DNA of 64,000 nt from positions 62,001 through 126,000 of the forward strand of contig NZ_PYGE01000004.1 of assembly GCF_003014555.1 (NCBI RefSeq), written 5' to 3'. This DNA is from Haloactinopolyspora alba (GTDB taxonomy: Bacteria > Actinomycetota > Actinomycetes > Jiangellales > Jiangellaceae). Shown one piece after another: positions 8,839-54,533 of this stretch. The notes beneath the pieces are model-generated. The model was not told the DNA's origin. It searched no databases and was given only the letters and a program-made list of their open reading frames with translations. Position 1 is the first letter of the stretch; each line of letters opens with the position of its first letter. The translations under genes and the position numbers were made by a program.

Positions 8839-9047
8839 GGCCGACACGTACCGGCCAGTGCTGCGTGACCGGGGTCGGGACGCCGACCCAGCAGCCCGCC
8901 CGAGACGTGCTCTGTTCGCAGTGCGGCCGGCGGCACCGTTCCGCGGCGGAGTCAGCAACGTCCGGCACTACGGCGAACGCCGTCCACGAGCGTCTATGGT
9001 GAGGAACGTCCCTGCGAGCGACCTCGTCGAAAAGGTGACTCGACCCG

Positions 9048-31464: not shown

Positions 31465-31540
31465 GTGGTGTTCTCCATTCGGGTGTTCGGGGTGCACCGG
31501 CGGCGCTGCCGGGGCTGACGTGGTGGCGGCCGGCGTCACC

Positions 31541-33399: not shown

Positions 33400-33421
33400 G
33401 TGAGTCTCCGTGGGGAAGAGG

Positions 33422-34732: not shown

Positions 34733-34785
34733 CCGTGACTCCTCCCGACCCGTCCTGGCGGCGGTTCATGTCGAGGTGACGGCAG

Positions 34786-34799
34786 TGTGAGCGCTCACA
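34786..34799. promoter_or_regulatory. LacI-type operator TGTGAGCGCTCACA before operon A
   Basis: A perfect 14-base palindrome with the central CG of LacI/GalR operators, followed on the minus strand by CACACT, a possible -10. A TTGACG lies slightly upstream (34815-34810). The site is 54 bases from the SBP start, so binding would block transcription. The likely regulator is the LacI protein encoded just upstream (34944-36008). Near-identical sites occur in the ara operon at 56236 and 57352. Confidence 0.8.
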
Positions 34800-34867
34800 T
34801 TCGGGTGAGCGTCAACAGGTCCGTGCTCGTCGTTTCCGGGGCCGACGAGGCGTCGGCGCCATGATGT

Positions 34868-34881
34868 CTACATCGATGTAG
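34868..34881. promoter_or_regulatory. Second palindrome CTACATCGATGTAG in the operon A control region
   Basis: A perfect 14-base palindrome in the LacI-to-SBP gap (34733-34943), unlike the TGTGAGCGCTCACA site. It may bind a second regulator or lie downstream of the LacI gene by chance. It has no terminator-like loop. Confidence 0.4.
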
Positions 34882-34943
34882 GAAGGAATGATGCCGAGCG
34901 GTGCCGGAGACGTCAACCCCCTCGCGGCACGTACGCGGATCGC

Positions 34944-36008
34944 TCAGGACAGCTCGCCGCCGACCGTCGACTCCCGGGGCTGCAGCGTGAAGTGCGCGAA
35001 GATCTCCCGGTGGGCGTCCGCGTCGTCGTCCGTCGACATCCGTCTGACCAGCAGTTCCACGGCCGTGCGGGCGATCTGCTCGCGGCCCGGGTCCACCGTC
35101 GTCAGCGTCGGCGTGCTGTAGCGCGCCTCCTCGATGTCGTCGAAGCCGACCACGGCGACGTCGTCGGGCACCCGGATGCCGTGCCGCAGCAGCACCCGCA
35201 GCGCGCCCAGGGCGAGGGTGTCGTTCATGGCGAACACGGCGTCGAACCGGACGCCGGAGTTCAGCAACCGCACCATCGCCTCGGCGCCGGTCGAGCGGTG
35301 CCAGGCTCCGGCGTCGGCGACCAGTTCGGGTGTCTCGTCGATGCCGGCGTCGCGCAGTGCCTGCAGGTAGCCCTGGTACCGCAGTGCCGCCGTGCCCATG
35401 AGCTCGCCGGAGTGGGTGCCGATGACGGCGATCCGCCGCCGGCCGGTCGCGGTCAGGTGCTGGACGACCGCCCGCGCGCCCGCGACGTTGTCGATGGTCA
35501 CGTGGTCGACGGGGCCGTGGAAGATCCGTTCGCCGAGCAGCACCATGGGGAACGACACGTTCAGGTGCTCCGCGTCGTCGGGCCCCATGGCCAGCGGGCT
35601 GAAGATCACGCCGTCCACGAGGTGGCCGCGCAGCCCCGAGAGCACGGTCAGCTCCCGCTCGCGGTCGGCGCCGGTCTGTTCCACCAGCACCGTGAGCCCG
35701 TTCTCGCGGGCGATGCGGATGACGGCCTCGGACAGCTCGGCGAAGTACGGCAGCCCGAGCTCCGGCACGGCGAGCGTGATGATGCCGCTGCGCCCTGCCC
35801 GCAGGTTCCGCGCCGTCAGGTTCATCCGGTAACCGAGCTCGTCGATGGCCTCGACGACCTTGGCCCGCGTGTGGTCGCGGATGTAGGGGTAGCCGTTGAC
35901 GACGTTCGACACGGTCTTCACCGACACGCCCGCACGCTTCGCGACATCGCGCATGGTGACGGGCGCGCCGTCCGGACGGCGTTCCGGGGCGTCGGTCACG
36001 ATCGCCAT
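34944..36008 (-). CDS. LacI family transcriptional regulator of operon A
   Basis: A 354-residue repressor. The helix-turn-helix and hinge lie at about 18-65 (VTMRDVAKRAGVSVKTVSNV then VNGYPYIRDHTRAKV). The periplasmic-binding-type sensor carries LVDGVIFSPLAMG, VTIDNVAGARAVV, FAMNDTLALGALR and VVGFDDIEEARY. It is encoded upstream of and in the same direction as operon A, so control of that operon is likely. The inducer is probably arabinose or an arabino-oligosaccharide. ATG at 36008 is used, and GTG at 35996 is an alternative start. Confidence 0.93.
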   Translation of the reverse strand: MAIVTDAPERRPDGAPVTMRDVAKRAGVSVKTVSNVVNGYPYIRDHTRAKVVEAIDELGYRMNLTARNLRAGRSGIITLAVPELGLPYFAELSEAVIRIARENGLTVLVEQTGADRERELTVLSGLRGHLVDGVIFSPLAMGPDDAEHLNVSFPMVLLGERIFHGPVDHVTIDNVAGARAVVQHLTATGRRRIAVIGTHSGELMGTAALRYQGYLQALRDAGIDETPELVADAGAWHRSTGAEAMVRLLNSGVRFDAVFAMNDTLALGALRVLLRHGIRVPDDVAVVGFDDIEEARYSTPTLTTVDPGREQIARTAVELLVRRMSTDDDADAHREIFAHFTLQPRESTVGGELS

Positions 36009-36080
36009 CGTAGGGCGCGCGGCACCGTCCGCGGATCGGTGTCGGCGCCACGGTGTACGGGTCGAGGACAGGACGCCACA

Positions 36081-36641
36081 ATGAGCCGCATGACTGAGGA
36101 CACCGCCGCCCGCTACCGCCGTCTCGCCGCCGACCTGACCCGCCGGGTGGAGACGGTGCCGGCGGCGCGCTGGGACTCGCCCTCGCCGTGCGCCGAGTGG
36201 ACCGCCCGCGGCGTGCTCGGGCACGTCATCGAGGCGCATGAGCGCGCGCCCGGTTTCGTCGGCCTGCCCTGGCCGCCGGGGCCGTCCGTGGACGACGACC
36301 CGGTGGCCGCCTGGGCGCACACCCGCGACCGGACGCTGGAGATGCTCGAGGACCCGTCGCGCGCCGAGCTGGAGCACGACGGCGTCTTCGGCCGCACGTC
36401 GCTGGCCCAGACCGTCGGCACGTTCGTCTGCTTCGACCTGATCGTGCACGGATGGGACATCGCCCGTGCGACCGGCGGCGACGAGACCATCCCGCCGGGG
36501 GACGTCGAGGACGCGTTCGCGTTCACCGCGCGCCTGGGCGACATGATGCGTACGCCCGGCGTGTTCGGCCCGGCGGTACCGGTTCCCGACGACGCCGACC
36601 GGCAGGCGCAGCTGCTGGGTTGGCTCGGCCGGCAGCCCTGA
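36081..36641 (+). CDS. TIGR03086-type DinB-like metal-binding protein
   Basis: A 186-residue four-helix-bundle protein of the mycothiol-dependent maleylpyruvate isomerase/DinB group. It shows RYRRLAADLTRRVETVPAAR, the SPCAEWTARGVLGHVIEAH block with a metal-ligand His, and FDLIVHGWDIARATG with a second His. The substrate is unknown; some relatives use mycothiol. ATG at 36081 has AGGACAGGAC upstream, and ATG at 36090 is an alternative. It is divergent from the LacI gene with only 72 bases between. Confidence 0.85.
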   Translation: MSRMTEDTAARYRRLAADLTRRVETVPAARWDSPSPCAEWTARGVLGHVIEAHERAPGFVGLPWPPGPSVDDDPVAAWAHTRDRTLEMLEDPSRAELEHDGVFGRTSLAQTVGTFVCFDLIVHGWDIARATGGDETIPPGDVEDAFAFTARLGDMMRTPGVFGPAVPVPDDADRQAQLLGWLGRQP

Positions 36642-36683
36642 CCGCCGGCCCATCCGGGTTGCACCGGGGTTCACAATGGGTGG

Positions 36684-37085
36684 ATGGTCTCCATCGAGCT
36701 GGCCCGGAAACTTCGCGAGGCGGGCCTGAAGTGGGAGCCGCAGCCGGGTGACCGGTTCGTCATCCCCGATCGCGGCATGGACGACGACGTCTTCGTGGTG
36801 AGCCAGATGGTCGTGGACGTCCACGACTTCCCCGAGGGGCGTGTGCTCGGCTTCAACGGCACCGTCGAATGGGCGCTGGACAGTCTGGAGAAGGACAGCG
36901 CGCTGTGGTTGCCCAGCGAAACCCAGCTACGCGACCGGCTCGGCGGCTCGTTCGTCAGCCTCACGAGTGCGGACGACGGGTATCACGTCACGCTGGACAT
37001 CGCCGGGCGTCGGCAGGACGTCGTCGACGACGATCCGGCGGAGGCGTACGGCAAGGCGCTGCTGTACCTCGCCTCCGGCGAGTAG
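36684..37085 (+). CDS. Conserved actinobacterial hypothetical protein, 133 aa
   Basis: A soluble acidic protein (SIELARKLREAGLKWEPQPG, then DRFVIPDRGMDDDVFVVSQM) ending DPAEAYGKALLYLASGE. I recall close relatives in many actinobacteria, often carrying a misleading pilus-assembly label. No motif supports pilus function. It follows the DinB-like gene by 42 bases on the same strand. The function is unknown. Confidence 0.8.
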   Translation: MVSIELARKLREAGLKWEPQPGDRFVIPDRGMDDDVFVVSQMVVDVHDFPEGRVLGFNGTVEWALDSLEKDSALWLPSETQLRDRLGGSFVSLTSADDGYHVTLDIAGRRQDVVDDDPAEAYGKALLYLASGE

Positions 37086-37129
37086 CGGAGCCGGGGCCGG
37101 CTGTCGTCCGGCATCGGCCCGTATCCGGC

Positions 37130-37168
37130 CGTCTAGGGCCGTCTAGGAAATTCCGTAGAGATCTCTAG
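37130..37168. repeat. CTAG-rich cluster
   Basis: CGTCTAG occurs twice, ten bases apart (37130 and 37140), followed by a third CTAG in TCTCTAGA at 37165. It lies between the 133-aa gene and the palindromic element at 37180 and resembles the clusters at 28538 and 29819. Confidence 0.55.
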
Positions 37169-37179
37169 AAGTGCTGAGA

Positions 37180-37233
37180 GTGATCGCCAGGGTTGTGCTG
37201 TCGCGTCGGCGGCAGCAGAACCCTGACGATCAC
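37180..37233. terminator. Palindromic element at the end of operon B, related to the one at 52290
   Basis: Arms at 37180-37200 and 37213-37233 match at 19 of 21 positions around a 12-base loop. Read on the minus strand it contains GTCAGGGTTCTGCTGCCGCC and CGACAGCA, the same words as the element at 52290-52333. It sits between converging genes and likely terminates operon B. Confidence 0.7.
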
Positions 37234-37268
37234 CGGTCGAGGTGACCGGTCAGGTCACCGGGTCAGCA

Positions 37269-40200
37269 TCACCGGGCGACGTCCGATCGGGCCGCCGCGG
37301 CCAGCACCTGCTGTGCCTCCTGCCTGGTGAACAGCTCCTCGGCCCGCCACGCCTCGACGAGGTCACGGACCGTCCGCACGAACGCGCCGTGGTCGTCGAA
37401 CGGGCGCTGCTGATCGACCAGGTCGAGGAAGGTGCAGCCGTCGCCGCGGTCGTGGTTCGGAACGCCGGAGTCGTCGTCGCCGAACGCGATCGACTCGTCC
37501 GCGGAGTGCCCACCCGGACACGCGTCCGCGCCCGGGTTCTCGGCCACGGTCACCGTCGCCCGTGCCCGGATGCCGGTGCCGTCCACGGTCCCGCCGACGG
37601 TGAACTCTCCCGGCGCCACGTACTGCGCCGGTTCGACGGCGTCCCAGGTCACCGGTATCCGGCTGTCCTTGGAGCCGTCGTTGTAGGTGGCGACGACGGT
37701 CGCGGGCAGGCTCGGCGCGACGCCGACCCGGGTGCGGACCGACACGTCGGCCACGCTGGTGATCTCGACCGCGTCGGTGACCCGGACCCAGACCGTGGCC
37801 TCGACCGGCAGGGTGGTGTCCTCGGCGATCCCGGAGACGGTGAAGCTGGTGCCGCCTTCGGCCACCTGCCCCGGCTCGACGCTCGCCCAGGAGACGGACG
37901 ACCGCGCAGTGGAGCCGTCGGCGTACTCCAGGGTGACCGTCGACGGAAGGTCAGGGAGCTCACCCTCGAGGGTCGGGGTGTGGACCGCTGCGACGTCGAC
38001 CGGCTGCTCGGCGAGGATCTCCCACTCACTCACCCCGACGGCGGAGTAGCTGGTGCCGTCGGCGTTCGGCGCCGCGTCGAACGTCGCCCGCAGCCGGGTG
38101 GTCGTGACCGGGTCGAACGTGGTGGTGTTCGTTCCGGTGCGGGCGGTTCCGTACCCGCTCGGGTTCGGCAGGTCCGTCCACGCCTCGGCCGAGCCGTCCC
38201 AGTACTGCACCGACCACGACTCCGGCACCGCGACGCCGTCACCGGTTCCGGCGGCGGTGTCCGTCCAGAACATCATCTCCGACCCGCTCACCCGCACCGG
38301 CTCCGGCCAGGTGTACTGCAGCCACTGGCTGGCCGGGCGCTCGCCCGACCAGGTGGCCCACACCTCGGCCTGGTCGCCGCCGGAGTTGGTGCCGCGGCCG
38401 TTGTTGACGGCGTCGACGCTGTTCCAGTCGGCGGTGTACGACGCCGACGCAGTGGCGTCCCCGGCGACGTTGACCCCGCCGTCACCGCCGTCCACCTCGA
38501 CGACCACCTGCTCGGCGGAGTCGAGCTCACCGTCCGAGGCGCGGAGCTCGAGCGTGTAGGTGCCGGGCTCGGTGAACCGCGCCACCGTCGTGGCCGCCGA
38601 CGGATCGTCGAAGACCACGGTCGCGCCTTCCGGCGCGCCGGCGACCTGCCAGGTCGAGGACAGCTCACCGGCGGGCAACGCGTCGTCCTCGACGATGCCG
38701 GTCAACCGGGCCCGGCCGGCCCCGGAGCCACCGGAGTCCTGCCATGCCCGTACGTACGGCGCCTTGTTCTCGCCGGCGGGCGCATCCGCCGCGGTGGCGA
38801 ACGCCTGGAACTCGGTGAGACCGGTGGCGTGGGCGGGCCGGTGCGTCATCCGGACCCGCAGCTTCTGGGTGGTGACCGCCGGGAAGCGCACCCGGTTCCG
38901 GTTCGCGCGCGGATAGCTCGGCGACTTCACCTGGCCCGCCACGTCGCGCCAGGTGTCACCGTCCAGGTACTGCACGGTGTACATCGCCGGTTCCGCGTAT
39001 CCGCCGTCCGACTTGTCGCTGTAGAAATGCAGACGGACGTCGTCCACCGTGGTCGGCTCGCCGAAATCGAGCTGGAAGGTGTCCGCCGGATTCGGTGAAC
39101 CCTGCGAGCCCCAGAACGGCTCGTTGATGGTGAAGCCGTCCACGGCGCCGCCGGGTCCGCGTCCTTCCGCCGAGAACGAGGCCGAGGCGGTGGCGTCGGC
39201 GGCCAGGTTCGGCCCGCTGCCGGCGGCGGTGATGTCGCGGCCCGCCTTGGCGAACATGTCGACGACGCGGGAGTCGTCGCCGAAGCCGACCTCGTCCGCC
39301 GCGGCGAGGGTGGCGGTCGTGCTCGACAGCACTCGCGCGTCGCCGCCGTCGGGGAAGGTGACCTCGCCGGTGGCGGGGTCGTAGACGAGATGTGTCAGCG
39401 TGTCGACGGTGAAGGCGTGCTCGCCGTCGAGGTACACCGAGTACCCCTCCGGCACGCTCTCGCCGTACGGGCGCTCACCGTCGCCGGGCTCGTCCCAGGT
39501 GATCGAGAGGTCGGTCCCGTGGTAGTTGATGTCGGTGACGGTGAAGTGCGGCCAGTCGATGTCGATCGGCGACAGTTCGACCTTGTCGTCCGAACGTGGC
39601 CGGAAGCCCATCGCGTCCTCGATGACCGTCCAGTTCGTCGTGCCGAGGATCGTGTGGTGGATCCACGAGCGGTATCCGATGTTCTGCGGGTCGGCGCTGC
39701 CGTCCGCCCAGAACTCGTTCTGGTCCGGCCAGCGGTTGTCGCCGTCGACGTAGTGCGCCCACGCGTTCCACGACAGCAGTTTCTTGTACCACTCGTTGCC
39801 GATGTACTGGTTCGGGTAGTCGCGCAGCACCGAGGAGAGGAACCGGAACGTCACGGTCGAGTTGATGACGGAGAAGTTGTTGCTGCCCGGATGGCCCTGC
39901 TCGGCGGCCTCGGCCTTGTCGGCCTGGTTCGCGGTGTAGAAGGGGAAGATCGGGTACTCGCCCGCGTCCGCCCACAGCCGCAGTGCCTCGAGGTACTGCG
40001 GGTCCTCGTCCGGCTTCGGCATCAGCCCGACGGCGTACGGGTAGTAGTTGTTGATCTCCTTCCACGGCACCAGGTCGCCGGACTCGACGTGGCGATGTTT
40101 GACCAGCTTGTCCTCGGGATCCCACAGATGCTCGAGGACGGCGTCGCGCACGCGCTGCGCGATCGCGCGCATCTCGTCGGCCTTCGCGGTGTCGCCCAGG

Positions 40201-41705
40201 GTCTCGTACGCGTCGGCCGCGGCCTTGGCGTTGCTGTAGACGTAGGCGGACTCCGCCCGGTCGAGGTTGCCGGGGCGCCAGTCGAACGAGACCGCGTCGG
40301 CGTCGTTGCCGGTCATCGCGCCCCAGTCGTACTCGATCAGGCTGTTGCCGTCGGTGTCGTAGTGCTCCAGCTGCCCCTTGACGTCCTTCTCCGCGTACCG
40401 GGCGAGGTTGCGCACGATCTCGGTCGGGCCGCCGTGCACCTGGTACGACTGCCAGGCCGACTCGGACAGGTACTGGGTGTAGCTGTTCGACCAGTTCTCG
40501 GGGTCGCCGGGGTTGTCGGTGTACTTGGTGTTGCGCGACGTCTCTCCCGCGGAGACCCAGGGGCCGTACGAGTAGATCGGGTTGCGCAGGTACTTGAGGT
40601 CGTCGACGAACATGCCGATGGTCAGCACGATCGCGTTGTTGTAACCCAGCACGCCTTCCATCGAGGTCGGGAACTGGTAGTCCTGGCCGGGGATGTTCGC
40701 GTCCAGGAAGTTGTACCGCAGCAGCCACCAGCGGTAATAGAGGGTCTTCTCGATGTTGTCGTCGGGAATGTCGATGTACGGCAGGTTCTCCGCCCACCAG
40801 CGGTTGTACTCCTGCACATGGTCGCGGTAGGCGTCCCGCGGAGCGGCCGCCCGCACGGTGTCGTAGGCGGTGCGCGACTCCGGGATCTCCTCGGTGACGA
40901 ACCCCAACTGGACCTTGGTCCGGGCGGAGCCTCCCGCGGGCACCGTGACGGTCCCGGTCAGCGCGCCGTCGGCGGGCTCCAGGCCATCACCGGAGAACCG
41001 GGGGAAGACCGTGGTCAGGTCGTTGCGCGCGGGCACGGTCCCGGTCAGCTCCGCGCCCTCGGGCTCGGTCGTGTACGGCGACGCCGCGCGCACCGCCACG
41101 TCCAGCCCGGTGGTGCCCGGGTTCCGGATCTCGAGGTTCGTCACGGCCACGTTGGCGTCGGTGATGTACTTCGTCTGCACCACGCGCAGGTCCAGCCCGT
41201 CCGCGGTGAACTCACTGCGCCAGTAGCTCGGGGTCTGGAGCCGGGCGTCGACGTCCTCGTTCAGGGTGACCGTGGTGCCGTCCACCGCGAGCTCGACGGT
41301 GTAGGCGTCGCGGCCGTCGATGCTCTCCCAGTAGGCGACGTCGCCGCCGAACCCCAGCTCGGAGGCGTCGTGTTCTTTCATGAACACCGCGCGGCCGCGG
41401 GTGAACAGCCAGTCGCCGGACGGGTCCGCGCCGTGCCGGGCCAGCATCCGGTCCATCCAGAAGCTGGTGCCGTCACCGCTGGCGAGGTCGGCCTGGTACA
41501 TCTCGCGCATCGTGCCGTTCACGGTGAAGTCGGTCGGCAGGTCCGGCACCGGAGTGTCCGAGCCGGTGTAGGTCGGGTATCCGATCGCGCTGTTGTCGGC
41601 GGGCGCCGGCGCGGCCGTGCCCATGGACGCGAGCATGCCCGCGGCGATGCTTCCCGCTGCCAGCCGGCGTGCGTGTCGTCGTGCGTGTCGTCTTCGTGTG
41701 TGCAC
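37269..41705 (-). CDS. Giant secreted multidomain glycosidase, probable GH121-type beta-L-arabinobiosidase
   Basis: A 1478-residue secreted protein. Layout: signal peptide 1-36; beta-rich N-domain about 40-290; (alpha/alpha)6-type barrel about 300-715 (YYRWWLLRYNFLDANIPG, PTSMEGVLGYNNA); discoidin-like domain 832-972; PKD/Ig-like 983-1072; second discoidin-like 1078-1232; two Big_4-type Ig domains 1235-1388; and a C-terminal helical FIMAH-like domain 1425-1478. It directly follows GH127 in an SBP-permease-permease-GH127 operon. This is the order of the Bifidobacterium HypBA locus, where the large enzyme (HypBA2, GH121) cuts beta-arabinobiose from extensin. Candidate active-site acids are Glu350, Asp482 and Glu664. 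The GTG at 41705 has GGAGG seven bases upstream. Family assignment is inference. Confidence 0.7.
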   Translation of the reverse strand: MHTRRRHARRHARRLAAGSIAAGMLASMGTAAPAPADNSAIGYPTYTGSDTPVPDLPTDFTVNGTMREMYQADLASGDGTSFWMDRMLARHGADPSGDWLFTRGRAVFMKEHDASELGFGGDVAYWESIDGRDAYTVELAVDGTTVTLNEDVDARLQTPSYWRSEFTADGLDLRVVQTKYITDANVAVTNLEIRNPGTTGLDVAVRAASPYTTEPEGAELTGTVPARNDLTTVFPRFSGDGLEPADGALTGTVTVPAGGSARTKVQLGFVTEEIPESRTAYDTVRAAAPRDAYRDHVQEYNRWWAENLPYIDIPDDNIEKTLYYRWWLLRYNFLDANIPGQDYQFPTSMEGVLGYNNAIVLTIGMFVDDLKYLRNPIYSYGPWVSAGETSRNTKYTDNPGDPENWSNSYTQYLSESAWQSYQVHGGPTEIVRNLARYAEKDVKGQLEHYDTDGNSLIEYDWGAMTGNDADAVSFDWRPGNLDRAESAYVYSNAKAAADAYETLGDTAKADEMRAIAQRVRDAVLEHLWDPEDKLVKHRHVESGDLVPWKEINNYYPYAVGLMPKPDEDPQYLEALRLWADAGEYPIFPFYTANQADKAEAAEQGHPGSNNFSVINSTVTFRFLSSVLRDYPNQYIGNEWYKKLLSWNAWAHYVDGDNRWPDQNEFWADGSADPQNIGYRSWIHHTILGTTNWTVIEDAMGFRPRSDDKVELSPIDIDWPHFTVTDINYHGTDLSITWDEPGDGERPYGESVPEGYSVYLDGEHAFTVDTLTHLVYDPATGEVTFPDGGDARVLSSTTATLAAADEVGFGDDSRVVDMFAKAGRDITAAGSGPNLAADATASASFSAEGRGPGGAVDGFTINEPFWGSQGSPNPADTFQLDFGEPTTVDDVRLHFYSDKSDGGYAEPAMYTVQYLDGDTWRDVAGQVKSPSYPRANRNRVRFPAVTTQKLRVRMTHRPAHATGLTEFQAFATAADAPAGENKAPYVRAWQDSGGSGAGRARLTGIVEDDALPAGELSSTWQVAGAPEGATVVFDDPSAATTVARFTEPGTYTLELRASDGELDSAEQVVVEVDGGDGGVNVAGDATASASYTADWNSVDAVNNGRGTNSGGDQAEVWATWSGERPASQWLQYTWPEPVRVSGSEMMFWTDTAAGTGDGVAVPESWSVQYWDGSAEAWTDLPNPSGYGTARTGTNTTTFDPVTTTRLRATFDAAPNADGTSYSAVGVSEWEILAEQPVDVAAVHTPTLEGELPDLPSTVTLEYADGSTARSSVSWASVEPGQVAEGGTSFTVSGIAEDTTLPVEATVWVRVTDAVEITSVADVSVRTRVGVAPSLPATVVATYNDGSKDSRIPVTWDAVEPAQYVAPGEFTVGGTVDGTGIRARATVTVAENPGADACPGGHSADESIAFGDDDSGVPNHDRGDGCTFLDLVDQQRPFDDHGAFVRTVRDLVEAWRAEELFTRQEAQQVLAAAARSDVAR

Positions 41706-41758
41706 GTGTTGACCTCCGTTGGATCTGGGCCGGTGGCCGTGATCTGACCAGAGACGGT

Positions 41759-43717
41759 TCAGGTGTGTTCGTCGGCCGGACCTCCTTCGGGCGTGAGGGT
41801 GGGGAGCCAGACCCGCATGGTCGACGGGCCCCGCTCGGCCCACGTGAAGTACGGGACCAGCGGGATCCGCGCCGGCGTGCGCGTACCGGACGACGAAGCC
41901 GGCGACTGATACGGCCAGGACGCGTCGCCGACCTGTTCGTACGAGCCGGCGACCGTCACCGTGCCGTCGGCGTCCGCCGGGGCGGACGCGGCATCGACCC
42001 GGACGTCGTCGACCTCGTGGCCGGCCGGCAGGTCGGGCGATTCCACGCACATGACCAGCGGGCCCCGTTCGACGGCCGCGGTGCCGCGGACGGCGTCGAT
42101 CCGCGGATCGGCCGCGACCCAGCGCGGCGACGTCGGCAGCTCCAGCCGCACCACCTCGCCGACCGCGAACCGCCTGTGCACGTCGGCGGTACCGGGCTCG
42201 ACCGGACGCCGGCGACCGTCAGGCTCGACGAGCACGCCACCCCGTGTCGCCCACGCCGGAACCCGCAGCGACAGCGTCCAGGGCGTGCCGGGCGCCTCGG
42301 TGATGCGCACGGTCACGACACCGTCGTGCGGATAGCCGGTGGTCGTCTCGAAGCCGACGGGTGCGCCGTCGTCGAGGTGCGTCGAGACCACAGCGTCCGC
42401 GTACTGGTGGATCTGCAGGCCCGACGGTCCCGCCGTCACCAGGTACGTCGCGAGGCCGGCGAGGGTGCGTGCGACGTTGGGTGGGCAGCACGACACCGCG
42501 AACCACGGCGCGCGCATGCTGGACGCCGCCCGCGGGCTGTCGGTGTCCGCGGCCGGGACGGCGCCGCGGCGGCGCTGATGCAGCGTGTTGGCGTAGAAGA
42601 ACGACCTGCCGTCCGCGGCGGGTGACGCGGCCACCACGTTGTACAGGGTGCGTTCGGCCAGGTCGGCGAACCTGGGCTCGCCGGTGGCCAGCAGCAGCCG
42701 CCAGCTGAGCATCACCGACGCGACGCCCGCGCAGGTCTCGGAGTACGCGCGGTCGGGCGGCAGCACGAAGTCGTCGCCGAACGCCTCGTCCATGTGCTGC
42801 GAGCCCATGCCGCCGGTGATGTAGGTGCGCCGCGCGACGGTCGCCTCCCACTGCCGGACCACCGCGTCGAGCAGGTCGTCGTCCCGGCTCTCGACGGCGA
42901 CGTCGACCGCTCCCGACGCGAGGTAGAGCGCACGCACCGCGTGCCCGCGGAACACGTCCGCCTCGCGCACCGGGACGTCGTCCTGGTAGTACGTCCGGCC
43001 GAACTCGATGTCGGCCAGCGTCCCGTGTCCCCGCCGCTCGACGAACGCCACGGCCTGGTCGAGGTAGCGCTGCTCCCCGGTGTAGCGGGCGAGCTCGACC
43101 AGGGCCATCTCGATCTCCGGGTGCCCGCAGACGCCGTCGAGCCCGTCCGGGCCGAAGACGTCGCAGACGTGGTCGGCCGCGCGCCTGGCGATGGTGACGA
43201 ACACGTCGTCGGCGCCGGCGGTGCGAGCACGGGCGACACCGGCCTGGATCAGGTGGCCGTAGCAGTAGAGCTCGTGCCCCCACTCGAGGTCGCTGTACCG
43301 ACCGGGCTGGCCGGGCCGGCCGAACGCGGTGTTCAGGTAGCCGTCGTCCTCCTGGACCGGCGCGATGATCGCGGTGAGCTCGCGGATCGCCGCGTCCGGC
43401 CCCGGGTCGCCGGTCCGGCCGTGTTCCCAGGCCATCGCTTCGATCAGCTTGTACACGTCGGAGTCGGAGAACTCCCGCCCGCGCCGGTCGCGCGGCAGCC
43501 GCCCCTCGACGGCCGCCCGGAAGTTGTCGATCCAGCCGACGTGGTGCATCCAGCGCAGGCAGTGCTCGAGCGTCGCGGCGGCGTTCGTGCGCTGCCGCTC
43601 GCCCCAGAAGCCTCCGGTGATGCGTACCTCGCCGATCCCGAGCGGACGCAACCGCCCGCGGGACGGCGCGACCGGAAGCGCGGACTCGTGGACTCCGGAC
43701 AGGGGATTCGCCGTCAC
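41759..43717 (-). CDS. hypBA1: Beta-L-arabinofuranosidase, GH127
   Basis: A 652-residue cytosolic enzyme of the former DUF1680 family that releases L-arabinose from beta-1,2-linked arabinofuranosides. The zinc-cysteine active site is recognisable: Glu327 and Cys329 in YSETCAGVAS, Cys410 and Cys411 in SCCPPNVART. The N-terminal blocks ITGGFWGERQR and DSDVYKLIEAMAW fit the family. There is no signal peptide, so it acts on imported beta-arabinobiose. GTG at 43717 is preferred, with a GTG six codons upstream also possible. It follows the permease genes and precedes the giant secreted enzyme. Confidence 0.93.
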   Translation of the reverse strand: MTANPLSGVHESALPVAPSRGRLRPLGIGEVRITGGFWGERQRTNAAATLEHCLRWMHHVGWIDNFRAAVEGRLPRDRRGREFSDSDVYKLIEAMAWEHGRTGDPGPDAAIRELTAIIAPVQEDDGYLNTAFGRPGQPGRYSDLEWGHELYCYGHLIQAGVARARTAGADDVFVTIARRAADHVCDVFGPDGLDGVCGHPEIEMALVELARYTGEQRYLDQAVAFVERRGHGTLADIEFGRTYYQDDVPVREADVFRGHAVRALYLASGAVDVAVESRDDDLLDAVVRQWEATVARRTYITGGMGSQHMDEAFGDDFVLPPDRAYSETCAGVASVMLSWRLLLATGEPRFADLAERTLYNVVAASPAADGRSFFYANTLHQRRRGAVPAADTDSPRAASSMRAPWFAVSCCPPNVARTLAGLATYLVTAGPSGLQIHQYADAVVSTHLDDGAPVGFETTTGYPHDGVVTVRITEAPGTPWTLSLRVPAWATRGGVLVEPDGRRRPVEPGTADVHRRFAVGEVVRLELPTSPRWVAADPRIDAVRGTAAVERGPLVMCVESPDLPAGHEVDDVRVDAASAPADADGTVTVAGSYEQVGDASWPYQSPASSSGTRTPARIPLVPYFTWAERGPSTMRVWLPTLTPEGGPADEHT

Positions 43718-43782
43718 TCGGGGCGCACCTTTCACTCGGCGATCGGGACCGCTGGTGGTCGACTCGGTGTCCTGCAGCGGCC

Positions 43783-44619
43783 TCATCCCTTCAGCGCCCC
43801 GGACATGAAGCCGCGGATGTAGTGCCGCTGCAGGAGGAGGAACAGCGCCAGGCACGGCACGGCGAGCACCACCACGCCGGCCTCGGTGGCCCCGTAGTCG
43901 ATCGCGCCCATGCTCTGCTGGCGCAGGTTCGCGATCGCGAGGGGCAGCGGCGCCTTCGAGCTGTCGCTGATCAGGATGAGGGGGGCGATGAAGTCGTTCC
44001 AGGCGGCGAGGAAGGCGAACAGGCCGACGGTGATGAGGCCGGGCTTCACCGCCGGGAGCAGGATCCGGCGCAGCGCACCGAACGTGCCGCACCCGTCGAC
44101 CTGCGCGGACTCCTCAAGCTCGCGTGGCACCGCTTCGAACGAGATGCGCATCATGAACGTCGCGAACGGCAGCTGGTACATCGCCAGCACCAGGCTCAGC
44201 CCGATCAGCGTGTTCGACAGGTTGAGGTTGCCGAGCAGCACGTACAGCGGGATGAGCAGGGTCGCGTACGGGACCATCAGGATCGCCAGCGTCAGCAGGA
44301 ACAGCACGTTCTTCCCCGGGAAGTCGAACCGGGCGAACGCGTACCCGCCCAGCAGCGAGACGCCCAGGGTCAGCACGACCGTCGCGATCGAGACGTACGT
44401 GCTGTTCCACAGGTACTGCCACAGTCCGGCGTCGTACTCGAGCAACGTCCGGTAGTTGCCGAAGCCGAAGCCCTCGTCCTGCGCGGTGCCGGCCTGCGGT
44501 GAGACCGACGCGAACGCGCTCCACACCAGCGGGAACATGAAGATGACGGCGAGTCCACCGGCCAGGACGTAGTACGGGGTGCGGCCCAGGTGGGAGGTGA
44601 GCTTCATGCGTGGCTCCAT
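43783..44619 (-). CDS. Carbohydrate ABC transporter permease (MalG type), operon B
   Basis: A 278-residue permease with six helices. The EAA loop is LEESAQVDGCGTFGALRRIL. An ATG at 44607 (MKLTSH) is an alternative start. It starts one base before the stop of the MalF-type gene region, so the two are tightly packed. Predicted cargo is beta-arabinobiose, from the GH127 gene that follows. Confidence 0.93.
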   Translation of the reverse strand: MEPRMKLTSHLGRTPYYVLAGGLAVIFMFPLVWSAFASVSPQAGTAQDEGFGFGNYRTLLEYDAGLWQYLWNSTYVSIATVVLTLGVSLLGGYAFARFDFPGKNVLFLLTLAILMVPYATLLIPLYVLLGNLNLSNTLIGLSLVLAMYQLPFATFMMRISFEAVPRELEESAQVDGCGTFGALRRILLPAVKPGLITVGLFAFLAAWNDFIAPLILISDSSKAPLPLAIANLRQQSMGAIDYGATEAGVVVLAVPCLALFLLLQRHYIRGFMSGALKG

Positions 44620-44620
44620 G

Positions 44621-45568
44621 TCAGGCCTCGTCCGCTCGGCGCAGCCCGAGGAACTGGGCGATGTTGAGGATCAGCAGCACGACGAGGACGATCATGGAGA
44701 TCGCGGCGGCGGTGCCGAGGTCGAGGCGCTGGAAAGCTTCGCGGTAGATCAGCTGCACCACGGTGACGGTGCTGTTGTCCGGCCCGCCCTTGGTGAGGAT
44801 GAAGAACTGGTCGAACGCGAGCAGCGAACCGGTGACGCACAGGATCAGCGTCAGCGCGATCGACGGGCGCAGCAGCGGCAGCGTGATGCTGCGGAAGGTC
44901 TGCCAGCGGCTCGCGCCGTCCATCCGGGCCGCCTCGTACACGTCGTGCGGGATGCCCTGCAGGCCCACCAGCAGGATGAGCATGTAGAAGCCGGCGAACT
45001 TCCAGACGATCAGGAACACCGTCGACCACAGCGCCGAGGTCGACGTGCCGAGGAACGATATCGGCCCGTCGGCGAGGCCGAGCCACTCCAGGATCGGCCC
45101 GATCGGGCCGATGGAGGGGCTGTAGAGGCCCCAGAACAGCAGTGAGGCCGACGCCAGCCCGAGTGCACTGGGCAGGAAGAACACCGTCCGGAAGAAGCCG
45201 ACACCGGGACGCTGCTCCTGGACCATCAGCGCCAGCAGCAGCGCCAGCCCGAGCAGGATGACGGTGACGATCACGGTGTACAGCAGCGTGAACCGCACCG
45301 CCGGCCAGAACAGCGCGTTGTCCGCGACGGCGGTGTAGTTGTCCGGGAGGTTCAGGCCCTGGTCGCCGCGCAGCAGCGGCCAGTCGCTGGCCGACATCCG
45401 GCCGACGAGCAGCAGCGGCACGATGAAAAGCACCAGCACGAACAGCGCTGTGGGGCTGGCGTAGCCGATGCCCTTGAGTGCACGTGAACGCCACCAGGGT
45501 GTCCGGCGAGTCGGGGCGCGGTCCCGGACGGGCGACGCGACCGGACGGTCTGTCACCTGTGACTGCAT
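44621..45568 (-). CDS. Carbohydrate ABC transporter permease (MalF type), operon B
   Basis: A 315-residue permease. TM1 is YASPTALFVLVLFIVPLLLV, and the EAA loop is VYEAARMDGASRWQTFRSIT. The TKGGPDNSTVTVVQLIYREA segment is typical of CUT1 transporters. It follows the SBP gene by 15 bases. As in operon A, no ATPase gene is present. Confidence 0.94.
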   Translation of the reverse strand: MQSQVTDRPVASPVRDRAPTRRTPWWRSRALKGIGYASPTALFVLVLFIVPLLLVGRMSASDWPLLRGDQGLNLPDNYTAVADNALFWPAVRFTLLYTVIVTVILLGLALLLALMVQEQRPGVGFFRTVFFLPSALGLASASLLFWGLYSPSIGPIGPILEWLGLADGPISFLGTSTSALWSTVFLIVWKFAGFYMLILLVGLQGIPHDVYEAARMDGASRWQTFRSITLPLLRPSIALTLILCVTGSLLAFDQFFILTKGGPDNSTVTVVQLIYREAFQRLDLGTAAAISMIVLVVLLILNIAQFLGLRRADEA

Positions 45569-45583
45569 GGTTCTCCTTCGCCG

Positions 45584-46897
45584 TCAGCTGCTCAGCGAGC
45601 TGCTGACCGCCTCGTTGTTCTCCTCGAGCTTGGTCTCGTCGCCGTAGACGGCGTCGCGCATCAGCGTCAGCCACGGCCCGTTCGGGTCGTTGAACGTCTG
45701 CCCGAAGTTCAGCGAGTACGGCGTCCGGCCGCTGGCGAGTAGCTCGTTGACGGTCACCAGCCGCGGGTCCGCGTCGGAGTGCTTGTTGCTGGCCAGGTCG
45801 GTCCTGGCGACGACGTCACCGTTCGCCGCGACCACGTCGATCTGTGCTTCGTCGCCGAGGGACCACGCCAGGAAGTTCCAGGCCTGGTCGACGTGCTCGC
45901 TCGCGGCCGAGATGCCGATGGCGTCGCCGCCGACGAAGGTCGACTCGCCGCCGTCCGGGCCGGGAATCGGCGCCACCCCGAAGTCGAGGTCGTCGGGCAT
46001 CAGGCCGAACGTCGTGGACGGCATCGGCATCACGCCGATGTTTCCCTCGGGGAAGTAGCCGGTCCATGTGGTGCCGGTCTCGTCGCGCGCCCCCGGAGCG
46101 GTGACGTCGTCGGCGGCCCAGCCGCGGTACACGTCGTAGACCTGCTGGGCGACGTCGGAGGCGAGGTTGGCTTCGGTGCCGTCGTCGTTCATGACGTCCT
46201 CGCCGGCGGCCCAGATCGACGGCCACCAGGTGAACACGCCGCATCCGCCGCAGTTGCCGCCGAAGAACGTGCCGTGGACGTCGTCGCCGAGCGCGTCGAT
46301 GGCGCGGGCGTGCTGGTCCCACTCGGCGAGGGTGGTGGGCGGCTGCTCGGGATCCAGCCCGGCCTTGGCGTACAGGTCCTTGTTGTAGAACAGCACCGAC
46401 AGGTCGAGGGTGTGCGGGACGACGTACTTGCTGCCCTCGAACGTGCCCGCGTCGATGTGCGCCGGGGCGAGGGCGTCGGCGTACGGCAGCGACTCGATCC
46501 GGTCGGTCAGGTCGGTGAACAGCCCGCTGGACGTGTAGTTCGGCACGAACACCACGTCGGAGGCGAACAGGTCCGGCAGTTCACCGGAGCCGGCGGCGGC
46601 GCCGACCTTGGCCTGGTAGTCGTCGGTGGGGATGACGGTGAGCTCGATCTGGTTCTCGTGGCTCTCGTTGTAGGCGGCGACGAGTGCCTCGCTCTGCGCC
46701 TGCGTCGCGGCGCGCGTCCACATGGTCAGGGTGGTGCCGTCGTCGACGCCGTCGGGGCCGCCGGCTCCGGTTTCGCCGGAGGTCTCGCCGGAGCCGCCGG
46801 ATCCGCAGGCGGTCACGAGGCCGACGGCCGCGATGGCCGCGATCGTTCTCGTGCTGCCGCGGCCGGGGTGTCGCCGCGCTCTGGTCGCTGTCCGCAT
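45584..46897 (-). CDS. Sugar ABC transporter solute-binding lipoprotein, operon B
   Basis: A 437-residue binding protein. The signal peptide ends in the lipobox VTAC followed by a Gly/Ser/Glu linker. The mature part opens with TTLTMWTRAATQAQSEALV, typical of CUT1 proteins. A CGGCGVF segment with paired cysteines is visible mid-protein. It is the first gene of operon B and is divergent from the LacI gene at 47158. It should deliver beta-arabino-oligosaccharides. Confidence 0.92.
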   Translation of the reverse strand: MRTATRARRHPGRGSTRTIAAIAAVGLVTACGSGGSGETSGETGAGGPDGVDDGTTLTMWTRAATQAQSEALVAAYNESHENQIELTVIPTDDYQAKVGAAAGSGELPDLFASDVVFVPNYTSSGLFTDLTDRIESLPYADALAPAHIDAGTFEGSKYVVPHTLDLSVLFYNKDLYAKAGLDPEQPPTTLAEWDQHARAIDALGDDVHGTFFGGNCGGCGVFTWWPSIWAAGEDVMNDDGTEANLASDVAQQVYDVYRGWAADDVTAPGARDETGTTWTGYFPEGNIGVMPMPSTTFGLMPDDLDFGVAPIPGPDGGESTFVGGDAIGISAASEHVDQAWNFLAWSLGDEAQIDVVAANGDVVARTDLASNKHSDADPRLVTVNELLASGRTPYSLNFGQTFNDPNGPWLTLMRDAVYGDETKLEENNEAVSSSLSS

Positions 46898-46982
46898 TGT
46901 CCATCTCCCTCGCGTGGACGGTGTGTCGAGGCCGGTCGGACGGGCGTCGGTGCCTGGCCGCCACAGAAAAGACCGAAAAGGA

Positions 46983-47103
46983 TTTCAGTGCAACATAGAG
47001 GGGTTGGCCGGACGCGTCAACCCCTGTTTCAGCGGTACTTTCGCGTCATACGTGCATAGGAAGGCGTCGGCTACCGAAAGCCGGCAACCCTACTTTCGGT
47101 GCA
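46983..47103. promoter_or_regulatory. Divergent control region with repeated TTTCRGTGCA sites, operon B/LacI
   Basis: TTTCAGTGCA at 46983-46992 and TTTCGGTGCA at 47094-47103 are matching copies. The second is also the right arm of an inverted repeat ACCGAAAG-N12-CTTTCGGT (47073-47100). A good -10, TATACT, lies at 47110-47115 for the LacI gene. One copy lies close to each divergent gene, as expected for autoregulation. Confidence 0.6.
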
Positions 47104-47157
47104 TCGCTGTATACTGAACGCGCTCAGCTGGGTGGACCGACGACGAGGAGCGCGACG

Positions 47158-48186
47158 ATGGTCGAGGGGACACGGCCGGCCGGTGCTCGCGCGGTGACGC
47201 TCAGCGACGTCGCCCGGCTGGCGGGCGTGTCCGTCCCTACGGCGTCGAAGGCGCTCAACGGGCGTAGTCAGGTCCGCGCCGAGACGCGCGAGCGCGTGTT
47301 CGAGGCGGCCGAGCAGCTCTCGTTCCAGCCGAACCAGCTGGCGCGCGGGCTGCTGGCCGGGCGCAGCGGCACCGTGGGACTGCTCACGAGCGACCTCGAA
47401 GGACGCTTCAGCATCCCGATCATGATGGGCGCCGAGGACGCGTTCGGCGCCGGTCAGGTGGCGGTCTTCCTCTGCGACGCCCGCGGTGACGCCATCCGCG
47501 AGCAGCACCACGTGCAGGCGCTGCTCAGCCGCCGCATCGACGGGCTGATCGTCGTCGGCAGCCGCACCGATCCACGGCCGTCGCTCGGGCCGGACCTTCC
47601 GGTTCCGGTCGTGTACGCGTACGCGCCGTCGGATCAGGCGGACGACACGTCGATCGTGGTCGACAACGTCGGTGCCGGCAGGCAGGCGGTGGAACACCTG
47701 CTGGCGTGCGGCCGGCGCCGGGTCGCGCACGTCACCGGCGACCCCGGGTACGGCGCTTCCCGCGAGCGGGCCGAGGGCGCTCTCGCGGCGCTGGACGAGG
47801 CGGGCACCGCCCTGGTCGGCGGCGTCCGGTACGGAACCTGGTCGGAGGGGTGGGGGCGCGCGGCCACGTCGATGCTGCTCGACCAGCACCCGGACGTGGA
47901 CGCGATCCTGGCCGGCAGCGACCAGGTCGCCCGCGGCGTCGTCGACGTGCTACGCGAACGCGGCCGGGAGATCCCCGGCGACGTCGCGGTCATGGGCTTC
48001 GACAACTGGGAGATCCTGACCACGAACGCCAGGCCGCCGCTGACCAGCATCGACATGAACTTCGAGCGGCTCGGGCGGGTGGCCGCGCAGCGCCTGTTCG
48101 CCGCCATCGACGGCGCGCCGCCCGGTGGCGTCGAGGCGTTGCCCACCCGGCTGGTCATCCGCGAGTCGACCGCGCCGCAGACCTGA
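47158..48186 (+). CDS. LacI family transcriptional regulator of operon B
   Basis: A 342-residue repressor with HTH at about 13-60 (VTLSDVARLAGVSVPTASKA then LNGRSQVRAETRERV). The sensor domain has FLCDARGDAIREQHHVQALL, IDGLIVVGSRTD and VMGFDNWEILTT. GAGGAG precedes the ATG. It is divergent from operon B, so control of that operon is expected, with beta-arabinobiose or arabinose as the probable signal. It converges on the next LacI gene with 12 bases between stops. Confidence 0.93.
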   Translation: MVEGTRPAGARAVTLSDVARLAGVSVPTASKALNGRSQVRAETRERVFEAAEQLSFQPNQLARGLLAGRSGTVGLLTSDLEGRFSIPIMMGAEDAFGAGQVAVFLCDARGDAIREQHHVQALLSRRIDGLIVVGSRTDPRPSLGPDLPVPVVYAYAPSDQADDTSIVVDNVGAGRQAVEHLLACGRRRVAHVTGDPGYGASRERAEGALAALDEAGTALVGGVRYGTWSEGWGRAATSMLLDQHPDVDAILAGSDQVARGVVDVLRERGREIPGDVAVMGFDNWEILTTNARPPLTSIDMNFERLGRVAAQRLFAAIDGAPPGGVEALPTRLVIRESTAPQT

Positions 48187-49356: not shown

Positions 49357-52281
49357 GTGGCTCGTCTCCGCCGGCTCCTCGGCGTTCTCGCCGTTCCACT
49401 CCTCGCCGCGCCCGCGTTGTCGCAGGCGGCGGCCGCCCAGGAGCCCGACATGCCGTTCCGGAACCCGGATCTCCCCGTCGACGAACGCATCGACGACCTC
49501 CTCGGCAGGTTGACGCTGGAGGAGAAGGTCTCGCTGATGCACCAGTGGCAGCCGGCGATTCCACGGCTGGACATCCCGGCCTTCCGCACCGGAACCGAAG
49601 CCCTGCACGGCGTCGCCTGGCTCGGTGAGGCCACCGTGTTCCCGCAGGCCATCGGCCTCGGCAGCACGTGGAACCCGGAGCTGCTCGAGGATGTCGGCTC
49701 GGTCGTGGGAACCGAGGCGCGGGGGTTCAACGCGATCGATCCGGACTACCACGGGCTCAACCTGTGGGCTCCGGTCGTCGACCCGCTGCGTGACCCCCGA
49801 GCCGGACGGAACGAGGAGGGCTACTCCGAGGACGCGCTGCTCACCGGTGTGATGTCCACCGCCTACGCGCAGGGCATGCGCGGCGACCACCCCGATTACC
49901 TGAAGAGCTCACCGATGCTCAAGCACTTCATCGGTTACAACAACGAGGTCGACCGGTCGACGACGAACTCCAGCATGCCCGCGCGGATGCTGCAGGAGTA
50001 CTACCTCGAGTTCTTCCGCCCGGCCATCGAGTCCGGAGCCGTCAGCGGCATCATGGCCTCGTACAACTTCGCCAACGGGCGGCCCGCCCACCTGTCGCCG
50101 CTGATCGAGGACGAGGTCCGGTCGTGGAACGACGTCTTCGTCGTCAGTGACGCCTACGCGCCGACCAACGTGACCGGGTCGCAGAACTACTACGACACCC
50201 CCGCCAAGAGCCACGCCGCCCTGGTGAAGGCCGGCATCGACAGCTTCACCGACCGCGGCGAGGACTCCTCGTTCACCACCGCGAGCATCACCGCCGCGCT
50301 CGACGCCGGCCTGCTGACCGAGTCCGACCTGGACCGGTCGCTGCGGAACATGCTGCGGGTCCGCTTCCGCCTCGGCGACTTCGACCCGCCCGGGCTCAAC
50401 CCGTACGAGGACATCGGCCCCGAGGTCATCAACGCCCCGGAGCACCAGCAGCTGGCGCGTGAGGCCGCGACCGAACAGACCGTCCTGCTCAAGAACGAGG
50501 GCGACGCGCTGCCCCTGGACGAGGACGGCGCCGGCGACGTCGCCGTCATCGGACCGCTGGGCGACACCCTCTACGAGGACTGGTACAGCGGCACCATGCC
50601 GTACAAGGTCACCCCGCTGGACGGGCTGCGTGAGCGGCTCGGCGCCGACCGGGTGTCGGCACACGAGGGTGTCGACGAGATCGCGCTGCGCGTCGCCGAG
50701 ACCGGCGACTACGTGACCGCACCCACCGACGAGTCCGGCGGGCAGCTGACCACGAGCGGATCCGGCGTCGGGACCGCCGAGACGATGTCGCTGTTCGACT
50801 GGGGCCAGGGCGTCTACGCGCTGCGCACCGAGGCGAACGGCAAGTACGTGTCGCGCGGCTGGGACGACGTCCTCCGCAACGATCAGGTGCAGCCGAACGG
50901 CTGGCAGGTACGCGAGACGTTCACCTTCACCGACGCCGAGGACGGCACGGTCCTGGTGCGCAACGTGCAGAGCGGCAACTACCTGACCGTTGGCGCCGAC
51001 GGCGGCCTCACCACCGGGACGGCGGACGCCGCCGAGGCCACCCGGTTCGTCCGCGAGACGGTGAGCAGCGGCATCGACGAGGCCGTCGCCACCGCCGAGG
51101 CCGCCGACACCGTCGTCATGGTCGTCGGGAACAACCCCTACATCAACGGTCGCGAGACCGACGACCGCGAGGACATCAGGCTGCCGGCCGCGCAGCGCGA
51201 GCTGATCCGCGCCGTCACCCGGGCCAACCCGGACACCACCCTCGTCGTCGAGTCCAGCTACCCGCTGGCGATCAACTGGGCCGACGAGAACGTGCCGTCG
51301 ATCCTGTGGACGTCGCACGCCGGCCAGGAGACCGGTCACGCGCTCGCCGACGTGCTGCTCGGCGACGTCTCTCCGGCAGGCCGGCTTCCGCAGACCTGGT
51401 ACCGCTCGGTGGACGAGCTGCCGAGCATCCTGGAGTACGACATCGCCCGCGGCGACACGACGTACCTCTACTACGACGGCGACCCGCTGTACGCGTTCGG
51501 GCACGGGCTGACCTACACCGACTTCACCTACTCGCAGCCGCGGGTCAGCAGCTCCACGCTCGACCCGGACGGGACGGCCGAAGTCAGCGTCGACGTCACG
51601 AACACCGGCGACGTCGACAGCGACGAGGTGGTGCAGCTCTACAGCCGGGCGCTGGACTCACCGGTCGAGCAGCCGAACCGGGAACTTCGCGCGTTCGAGC
51701 GGGTGCACGTGCCGGCCGGCGCGACGCACACCGTGACGTTCGACGTGTCCGGCGCGGACCTGCGGCACTGGGACGTGGTGTCGGACCGGCTCGTGCCCAC
51801 GGCCGGGCGGCACGAACTGCTGGTGGGAAGCGCGTCCGACGACATCCGCGGCACGGCGAGCGTGCGGGTGCCGGGATCGGTGCAGCAGCCGACGCGGCAC
51901 CTGGCCCGTGAGGCCGAGAACGTCGCCGACTTCGACGACTACCAGGGCGTGGAGATCGTCGACCGGTCGAAGACCGCCGGCGACTCCGTCGGCGCCCACG
52001 CGGGCGACTGGGTGGCGTTCGAGCAGGTGGCGCTCAGCCGCAGCATCCGTGAGCTGCGCCTCGAGGTCGCGCGCGAGGCGAGCGGCACGGCTCGGGTCCA
52101 GGTGCGGCTCGGCTCCGCCGACGGGCGCTTGCTCGGTTCGGCGGACGTCGCGAGCACCGGCGACCGCTACGCCTACGAGACGGTGCCGGTGCCGCTGGAC
52201 GAGGTTCCCGGCGGCCGGCACGACCTGGTGCTCGTGTTCGGCGGCGAGATGCGCGCGTCGACGGTGCGGCTGTCGCGCTGA
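49357..52281 (+). CDS. Secreted GH3 glycosidase with internal fascin-like insert and C-terminal CBM6-like domain
   Basis: A 974-residue exo-glycosidase. The signal peptide is residues 1-27. The GH3 N-domain carries the nucleophile Asp265 in FVVSDAYAP. The GH3 C-domain is split by about 130 residues (440-570) resembling a fascin/beta-trefoil unit (NGKYVSRGWDD, SGNYLTVGADGGL), then continues with GNNPYINGRETDDREDIRLP and its likely acid/base Glu. A fibronectin-III-like domain (about 735-850) and a CBM6-like domain (about 850-974, from REAENVADFDDYQG) follow. Beta-glucosidase, beta-xylosidase or beta-L-arabinopyranosidase activity cannot be told apart here. The GTG at 49357 is the only start that keeps the signal peptide. 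Confidence 0.88.
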   Translation: MARLRRLLGVLAVPLLAAPALSQAAAAQEPDMPFRNPDLPVDERIDDLLGRLTLEEKVSLMHQWQPAIPRLDIPAFRTGTEALHGVAWLGEATVFPQAIGLGSTWNPELLEDVGSVVGTEARGFNAIDPDYHGLNLWAPVVDPLRDPRAGRNEEGYSEDALLTGVMSTAYAQGMRGDHPDYLKSSPMLKHFIGYNNEVDRSTTNSSMPARMLQEYYLEFFRPAIESGAVSGIMASYNFANGRPAHLSPLIEDEVRSWNDVFVVSDAYAPTNVTGSQNYYDTPAKSHAALVKAGIDSFTDRGEDSSFTTASITAALDAGLLTESDLDRSLRNMLRVRFRLGDFDPPGLNPYEDIGPEVINAPEHQQLAREAATEQTVLLKNEGDALPLDEDGAGDVAVIGPLGDTLYEDWYSGTMPYKVTPLDGLRERLGADRVSAHEGVDEIALRVAETGDYVTAPTDESGGQLTTSGSGVGTAETMSLFDWGQGVYALRTEANGKYVSRGWDDVLRNDQVQPNGWQVRETFTFTDAEDGTVLVRNVQSGNYLTVGADGGLTTGTADAAEATRFVRETVSSGIDEAVATAEAADTVVMVVGNNPYINGRETDDREDIRLPAAQRELIRAVTRANPDTTLVVESSYPLAINWADENVPSILWTSHAGQETGHALADVLLGDVSPAGRLPQTWYRSVDELPSILEYDIARGDTTYLYYDGDPLYAFGHGLTYTDFTYSQPRVSSSTLDPDGTAEVSVDVTNTGDVDSDEVVQLYSRALDSPVEQPNRELRAFERVHVPAGATHTVTFDVSGADLRHWDVVSDRLVPTAGRHELLVGSASDDIRGTASVRVPGSVQQPTRHLAREAENVADFDDYQGVEIVDRSKTAGDSVGAHAGDWVAFEQVALSRSIRELRLEVAREASGTARVQVRLGSADGRLLGSADVASTGDRYAYETVPVPLDEVPGGRHDLVLVFGGEMRASTVRLSR

Positions 52282-53848: not shown

Positions 53849-53858
53849 CGTTTCCTCC

Positions 53859-54533
53859 TCAGCGGGCACGGGCCGTGGCCTGGCCGTAGGCGTTCTGATA
53901 GCGGTCGTACAGGCTGTCGACGTCGGCCGGCTCGATCGGCTCGGGCTCGCCGAGCTGGCGCGCGACGTGCACGGTCTTGGCGACGTCCTCGCACATCACC
54001 GCGGCCTTCACCGCCGCGCGCGCGTCCTTGCCGATGCTGAACACGCCGTGGTTGCGCATCAGCACCGCCGGCGAGCGGTGCCCGTCGAGGGTGCCGACGA
54101 TGCCGCGGCCGATGGAGTCGTCGCCGATCAGGGCGAACGGTCCCACCGGGATCTCGCCGCCGAACTCGTCGGCCATCGCGGTCAGCACGCACGGGATCGC
54201 CTCGCCGCGGGCCGCCCATGCGGTGGCGTACGTCGAGTGGGTGTGCACGACGCCGCCGACGCCGGGCATGTTCCGGTAGACGTAGGCGTGCGCGTCGGTG
54301 TCGCTGGACGGCGCGTGCCGGCCGTCCACCAGCGTGCCGTCCAGGTCGCAGACCACCATCGACTCCGGCGTCAGGTCGTCGTAGGAGACGCCGCTGGGTT
54401 TGATGACGAACAGGTCGGCGCCGGGCACCCGGCCGGACACGTTCCCCGACGTCCAGGCCACCAGGTCGTTGCGCACCAGTTCGGCATGCAGGTCACAGAC
54501 CGCGCGGCGCAGCTCGTCCACGGCGTCGGTCAT
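53859..54533 (-). CDS. araD: L-ribulose-5-phosphate 4-epimerase
   Basis: A 224-residue class II aldolase-like epimerase forming D-xylulose-5-phosphate. Motifs are [32 protein letters not shown] and the zinc-ligand [13 protein letters not shown], with a further His in [13 protein letters not shown] at 54533 follows GGGAGAG. An ATG at 54566 overlaps the araB stop (ATGA) and would add eleven residues. araA follows after 10 bases. Confidence 0.95.

Follow-up and report, generated by a model that had tools for sequence, protein, structure and literature searches.

The window, a 64,000-nucleotide stretch of the Haloactinopolyspora alba genome, carries on its reverse strand a series of five genes encoding a substrate-binding lipoprotein (SBP; 45584-46897), ABC permease A (44621-45568; PF00528), ABC permease B (43783-44619; PF00528), a 675-aa cytosolic GH127 β-L-arabinofuranosidase (41759-43786), and a secreted protein of 1478 aa (37269-41705). 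A LacI-family regulator gene (47158-48186, forward strand; PF00356, PF13377), which is kept beside SBP genes in relatives, diverges from this series. Each of these genes was found where an earlier, sequence-only reading had placed it, through matches far stronger than chance would give. The distances from the SBP gene to the last gene (15 bases, 1 base, an ATGA overlap, and 53 bases) are so short that the five genes likely form a single operon. The surrounding region is an arabinose-glycan island. It contains, all on the reverse strand, araA (L-arabinose isomerase; 52340-53869; NF002795, 794 bits), araD (L-ribulose-5-phosphate 4-epimerase; 53859-54533; NF005123, 383 bits, and its start site), and araB (L-ribulokinase; 54563-56248; TIGR01234, 808 bits), each above the cut-off of its model and headed by another LacI-family regulator gene (56293-57348). 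A secreted GH3 (49357-52281) is also encoded there. Beside the operon lies a separate α-arabinofuranoside gene cluster (29956-36020), in which ArfA, a GH51-type arabinosylfuranosidase scoring above cut-off, is accompanied by a permease, an SBP, and a LacI regulator.

The gene for the large secreted protein starts with GTG preceded by GGAGG, and its product has a signal peptide and a catalytic region at approximately residues 33-825. The sole NCBIfam family found for it by hmmscan was HypBA2 (NF041578), with 1154.9 bits, a score that, as in every genome searched, stayed below the 3200-bit equivalog cut-off of a model spanning the bifidobacterial full length. Using phmmer, the best PDB match was HypBA2 itself (6M5A; 728.7 bits over residues 34-825), followed for the catalytic region by the GH142 structure 5MQR at 63.9 bits. 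An AF2 model of residues 36-830 (pLDDT 76.3, pTM 0.81) revealed an (α/α)6 barrel with flanking β-sandwiches, for which the top PDB fold was again 6M5A (E 3.9e-57, TM 0.86) and the second 5MQR (E 1.7e-19). Profile, PDB sequence, and fold comparison all put HypBA2 first, identifying the 1478-aa protein as a predicted GH121 β-L-arabinobiosidase. The sequence-only reading had regarded a best match to a family of another linkage specificity, or a loss of the conserved acids, as evidence against this assignment; GH142 was a distant second, and the acids were conserved. In HypBA2, the residues Glu383, Asp515, and Glu713 are completely conserved in GH121, and their mutants are dead (Glu383, Glu713) or nearly dead (Asp515) (PMC7263609). 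Mapping from 6M5A to the window protein with a chain offset of 31 placed them at Glu350, Asp468, and Glu664, all invariant across 36/36 distinct GH121 homologues aligned. Two of the three candidate acids proposed earlier, Glu350 and Glu664, are therefore retained, and the third acid is Asp468 in place of Asp482, which lies 14 residues past Asp468 in an LDRAE motif and is Glu in a divergent clade. Elsewhere in the genome, a 1101-aa protein (G000:C5:166500-168500; L071, approximately 8500-10400) contains a distant GH121-like barrel of 24% identity that lacks the three acids and was rejected as a second GH121.

The adjacent cytosolic enzyme matched all three GH127 Pfam domains, namely the catalytic (PF07944), middle, and C-terminal domains (PF20736, PF20737), and showed no visible signal peptide. 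In the alignment to 4QJY, 6EX6, and 3WKW, the E/C/CC metal site noted previously was confirmed at all four positions (Glu350/Cys352/Cys433/Cys434 in the 675-aa reading), together with the acid/base Glu334; their counterparts in HypBA1 are Glu338/Cys340/Cys417/Cys418 and Glu322. Four substrate residues of HypBA1, His142, Tyr145, His194, and Arg273, differ in GH146 (PMC10850190), and their equivalents could be aligned by eye in the window GH127. All four are likewise matched in 6EX6, an aceric acid hydrolase, and hence split GH127 from GH146 without fixing specificity inside GH127. The window enzyme is slightly closer to the Geobacillus GH127 (4QJY) and to 6EX6 than to HypBA1, and its own specificity must therefore be judged from the context.

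Part of that context is provided by the SBP, whose lipobox reads VTAC and whose best solved relative was 6LCE/6LCF at 350 bits, the next structure reaching 80 bits. 6LCE has been identified as a Bifidobacterium β-arabinobiose-binding protein that binds β-Ara2 exclusively (PMC8106489). The import step of the sequence-only reading gains from this match, which lies far above those to other SBPs, and the assignment of the SBP and permeases as a predicted β-arabinobiose-type importer is supported; the SBP, as a probable β-L-arabinobiose-binding protein, and the secreted enzyme, through HypBA2, would separately point to the same disaccharide. This agreement also bears on the possibility that GH121 has drifted to another β-L-arabinofuranoside, such as that of rhamnogalacturonan II (RG-II) or arabinan, with GH127 working on the resulting product. 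Such drift could be argued from the next fold to GH121, a GH142 of RG-II degradation, and from the score of 348 bits that GH127 attained against the aceric acid hydrolase model, but the SBP matches a β-Ara2-binding protein and the catalytic acids of GH121 together with their surroundings match HypBA2; we rate such drift very unlikely. The operon contains no ATPase gene, and MalK-type ATPases are encoded elsewhere in the genome. A shared ATPase (MsiK) encoded away from the importer operon is usual in actinomycetes.

Scanning positions 36600-47300 revealed a sole promoter-like site, TTGACG-17-TATGTT (46992-47020, reverse strand), located upstream of the SBP gene, where 0.3 sites were expected. 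The putative LacI-type operator CTGAAATCCTTTTCGG (46973-46988, reverse strand) sits three bases downstream of the -10 element, and no other site in the whole 5.5-Mb genome matched CNGAAANNCTTTTCGG with one mismatch allowed. The strict motif GAAA-N4-TTTC occurred in 16/17 LacI-SBP intergenic regions examined. In Kibdelosporangium-type loci (L024-L026) and in a genome of the same family (G010, L068), GH121 stands apart from the ABC genes and has the motif upstream of itself, which would tie GH121, the importer, and GH127 into one regulon. LacI control of the operon through this one predicted operator, single in the genome and conserved in relatives, is thus supported, in keeping with the earlier proposal.

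Taken together, we consider it probable, at about 0.88, that this is a LacI-controlled operon for the β-L-arabinooligosaccharides of plant hydroxyproline-rich glycoproteins (extensins etc.), homologous to HypBA of Bifidobacterium longum. The sequence shows how the genes are ordered, which families they belong to, the catalytic residues, the conserved operator, and araBDA close by; the substrate, transport direction, inducer, ATPase partner, and enzyme activities are what we infer. The secreted GH121 would clip arabinose pairs from hydroxyproline-rich plant wall proteins, and the lipoprotein and two permeases would bring β-Ara2 in, with energy from a shared ATPase of the MalK/MsiK type whose gene lies outside the operon. 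Cytosolic GH127 would then cut β-Ara2 to two L-arabinoses via a Zn-bound cysteine nucleophile, and arabinose would enter the pentose phosphate pathway through AraA, AraB, and AraD, encoded nearby. Repression by LacI would act at the single operator just downstream of the -10 element, from which β-Ara2 or arabinose would probably release the protein. The order of events proposed in the sequence-only reading, with cleavage outside the cell, uptake, and hydrolysis in the cytosol, is supported by the family matches of GH121, the SBP, and GH127. Hydroxyproline O-arabinosylation is known from small peptide hormones as well as extensins (PMC8012813), and the locus was found in streptomycetes whose names refer to potato scab (S. 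europaeiscabiei, L012; S. caniscabiei, L018). The main targets of GH121 might accordingly be O-arabinosylated signalling peptides (of CLE/PSY type, with tri-arabinosylated Hyp) or lectins instead of structural extensin, the operon modifying plant signals besides feeding the cell. However, import, GH127, araBDA, and LacI control look nutritional, and deletion of the Xanthomonas homologues left virulence unchanged (PMC6085000), making a signalling role very unlikely.

The description of the operon as "complete" did not hold, as the locus encodes neither a HypAA-type GH43 nor a GH146. No GH43 was present in the window cluster; GH43 genes occur elsewhere in the genome, the best match to the GH43 of the same-family genus g3 being 34%. 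Three PF07944 proteins were found in the genome: the GH127 of the operon, a paralogue of it that is cytosolic, and a secreted protein of 905 aa, for which the best solved relative is a GH127, not a GH146. The genome thus contains no clear GH146, and "complete" is too strong a term.

A broader view of gene content came from relatives, with 22 loci recovered in a single scan of genome contigs. GH121 is rare, being detected at E 1e-80 in 3/396 phylum genomes, the window's own included. In Streptomyces (L007-L022, L027), the ABC-GH127-GH121 order of the window is kept in 15/17 loci as far as contigs reach, with the same operator and with identities to the window of 74-77% for the GH121 catalytic region and 83-88% for permease B. 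Twelve Streptomyces loci have a GH146-type gene directly downstream of GH121, that of L015 being cut by the contig end; the 738-aa GH146 product of L008 (14121-16337) matched BT0349 (5OPJ) with 272 bits. Some GH146 enzymes remove Araf-β-Hyp, the residue left by GH121 (PMC10850190), and the Streptomyces downstream GH146 is likely the remover of this last Araf-β-Hyp. Two Streptomyces also carry a second GH121, 56-58% identical to the window's, across the LacI gene (L019:1020-3338, L022:875-3193). The genus g3 (L069, L070) has orthologous LacI, SBP, permeases, GH127, and operator, along with a GH121 only 38-39% identical to the window's that keeps the three acids and matches 6M5A with 370 bits. 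This divergent GH121 is adjoined by GH43, with GH146 nearby (L069:8041-16045, L070:3156-11222), both of which the window locus lacks, and it possibly represents a subfamily of GH121 that has a HypAA-like enzyme as its partner.

In phylogenetic trees, the window GH121 clustered with Streptomyces and excluded G010 (100/100), as did the SBP (98/98), whereas permease B fell within its own family (96/87), as, weakly, did LacI (91/88). Since only GH121 and the SBP group with Streptomyces, the idea that the operon was acquired as a whole from that genus by a recent horizontal transfer was rejected, and the operon history looks, from these trees, at most mosaic. A plasmid search returned nothing above 80% coverage.

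The C-terminal half of GH121 contains one confident F5/8C domain (838-956) and two Big_4 domains; a PKD-like stretch (approximately 1000-1072) and a second discoidin-like stretch (approximately 1080-1230) fell below Pfam cut-offs. Of the domain set listed earlier, one discoidin and both Big_4 domains were recovered, the second discoidin is weak, and the FIMAH-like label was dropped, with no FIMAH match to the C-terminal module up to E 1 or E 5 in Pfam searches. This module (residues 1386-1478, core approximately 1402-1478; 37272-37550, reverse strand) matched no family of Pfam or NCBIfam at an E of 0.05 or lower and is, by these searches, an uncatalogued domain and the least expected part of the system. 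It spans approximately 80 aa with the pattern DSGVPN...DGCT...HGxFVRHV, and in an alignment of 23 copies, Val30, Asn32, Val61, and Ala86 (numbered within a 93-residue stretch) were invariant. Its AF2 model (pLDDT 88.9, pTM 0.79) comprises two short strands and three helices, and comparison of this fold with the PDB gave nothing below E 1.8. Ten copies were found in the H. alba genome (the window and L072-L080), mostly on large secreted proteins; g3 genomes hold up to 20, and at least one copy was present in 37/198 class genomes. Secreted GH146 enzymes end in this domain in the other 11 of the 12 Streptomyces loci (L015 excepted). A deletion-fusion, in which GH121 took its tail from a downstream GH146 gene that has since been lost, was weakened as an explanation by the G010 GH121, which bears this tail without a GH146 next to it, and further by the ten genomic places at which the tail occurs. 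As the domain sits on large secreted proteins, we tentatively suggest, with a good deal of doubt, that it may be a module, undescribed so far, that retains secreted proteins of actinobacteria at the surface or sorts them to the wall, replacing the FIVAR-transmembrane anchor of HypBA2 and placed in this lineage on GH121, not on the GH146 partner as in most Streptomyces loci.

The system itself is known; our analysis adds its regulon, the variants in gene content, and the domain at the tail of GH121. The HypBA cluster of B. longum JCM 1217 (BLLJ_0208-0213; PMC7263609, PMC8106489) shares with the window the SBP, two permeases, GH127, GH121, and LacI, and in both the described cluster and the window operon an ATPase is absent. 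HypBA2 likewise has the catalytic acids, and its catalytic region is followed by F5/8C and Big_4 domains. However, B. longum has the GH43 HypAA, which the window locus lacks, and HypBA2 (1943 aa) ends in its FIVAR-transmembrane anchor, whereas the window GH121 ends in the uncatalogued helical domain. In Xanthomonas euvesicatoria, XeHypBA1/XeHypAA/XeHypBA2 (PMC6085000) resemble the window in combining GH121 with an arabinofuranosidase partner and in a GH121 without a membrane anchor. There, GH121 is paired with XeHypBA1 (GH146 per PMC10850190) and GH43, in contrast to the GH127, ABC importer, and araBDA of the window, and the organism cannot use L-arabinose (PMC6085000). GH121 homologues in actinomycetes were noted earlier (PMC6085000), Streptomyces CAZyme surveys list GH121 (PMC6998099, PMC13403950), and the BauR regulon has been described in bifidobacteria (PMC5928203); in the open-licence literature, we found no paper on this operon in actinomycetes. 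The β-arabinooligosaccharide pathway of gut bifidobacteria and Xanthomonas would thus extend to a regulated, arabinose-linked actinomycete operon with testable features, including a single operator, a matching β-Ara2 importer, and lineages differing in helper enzymes (GH43, GH146). The tail domain, which recurs on many secreted proteins of Jiangellaceae, could be a new way to keep enzymes near the cell.
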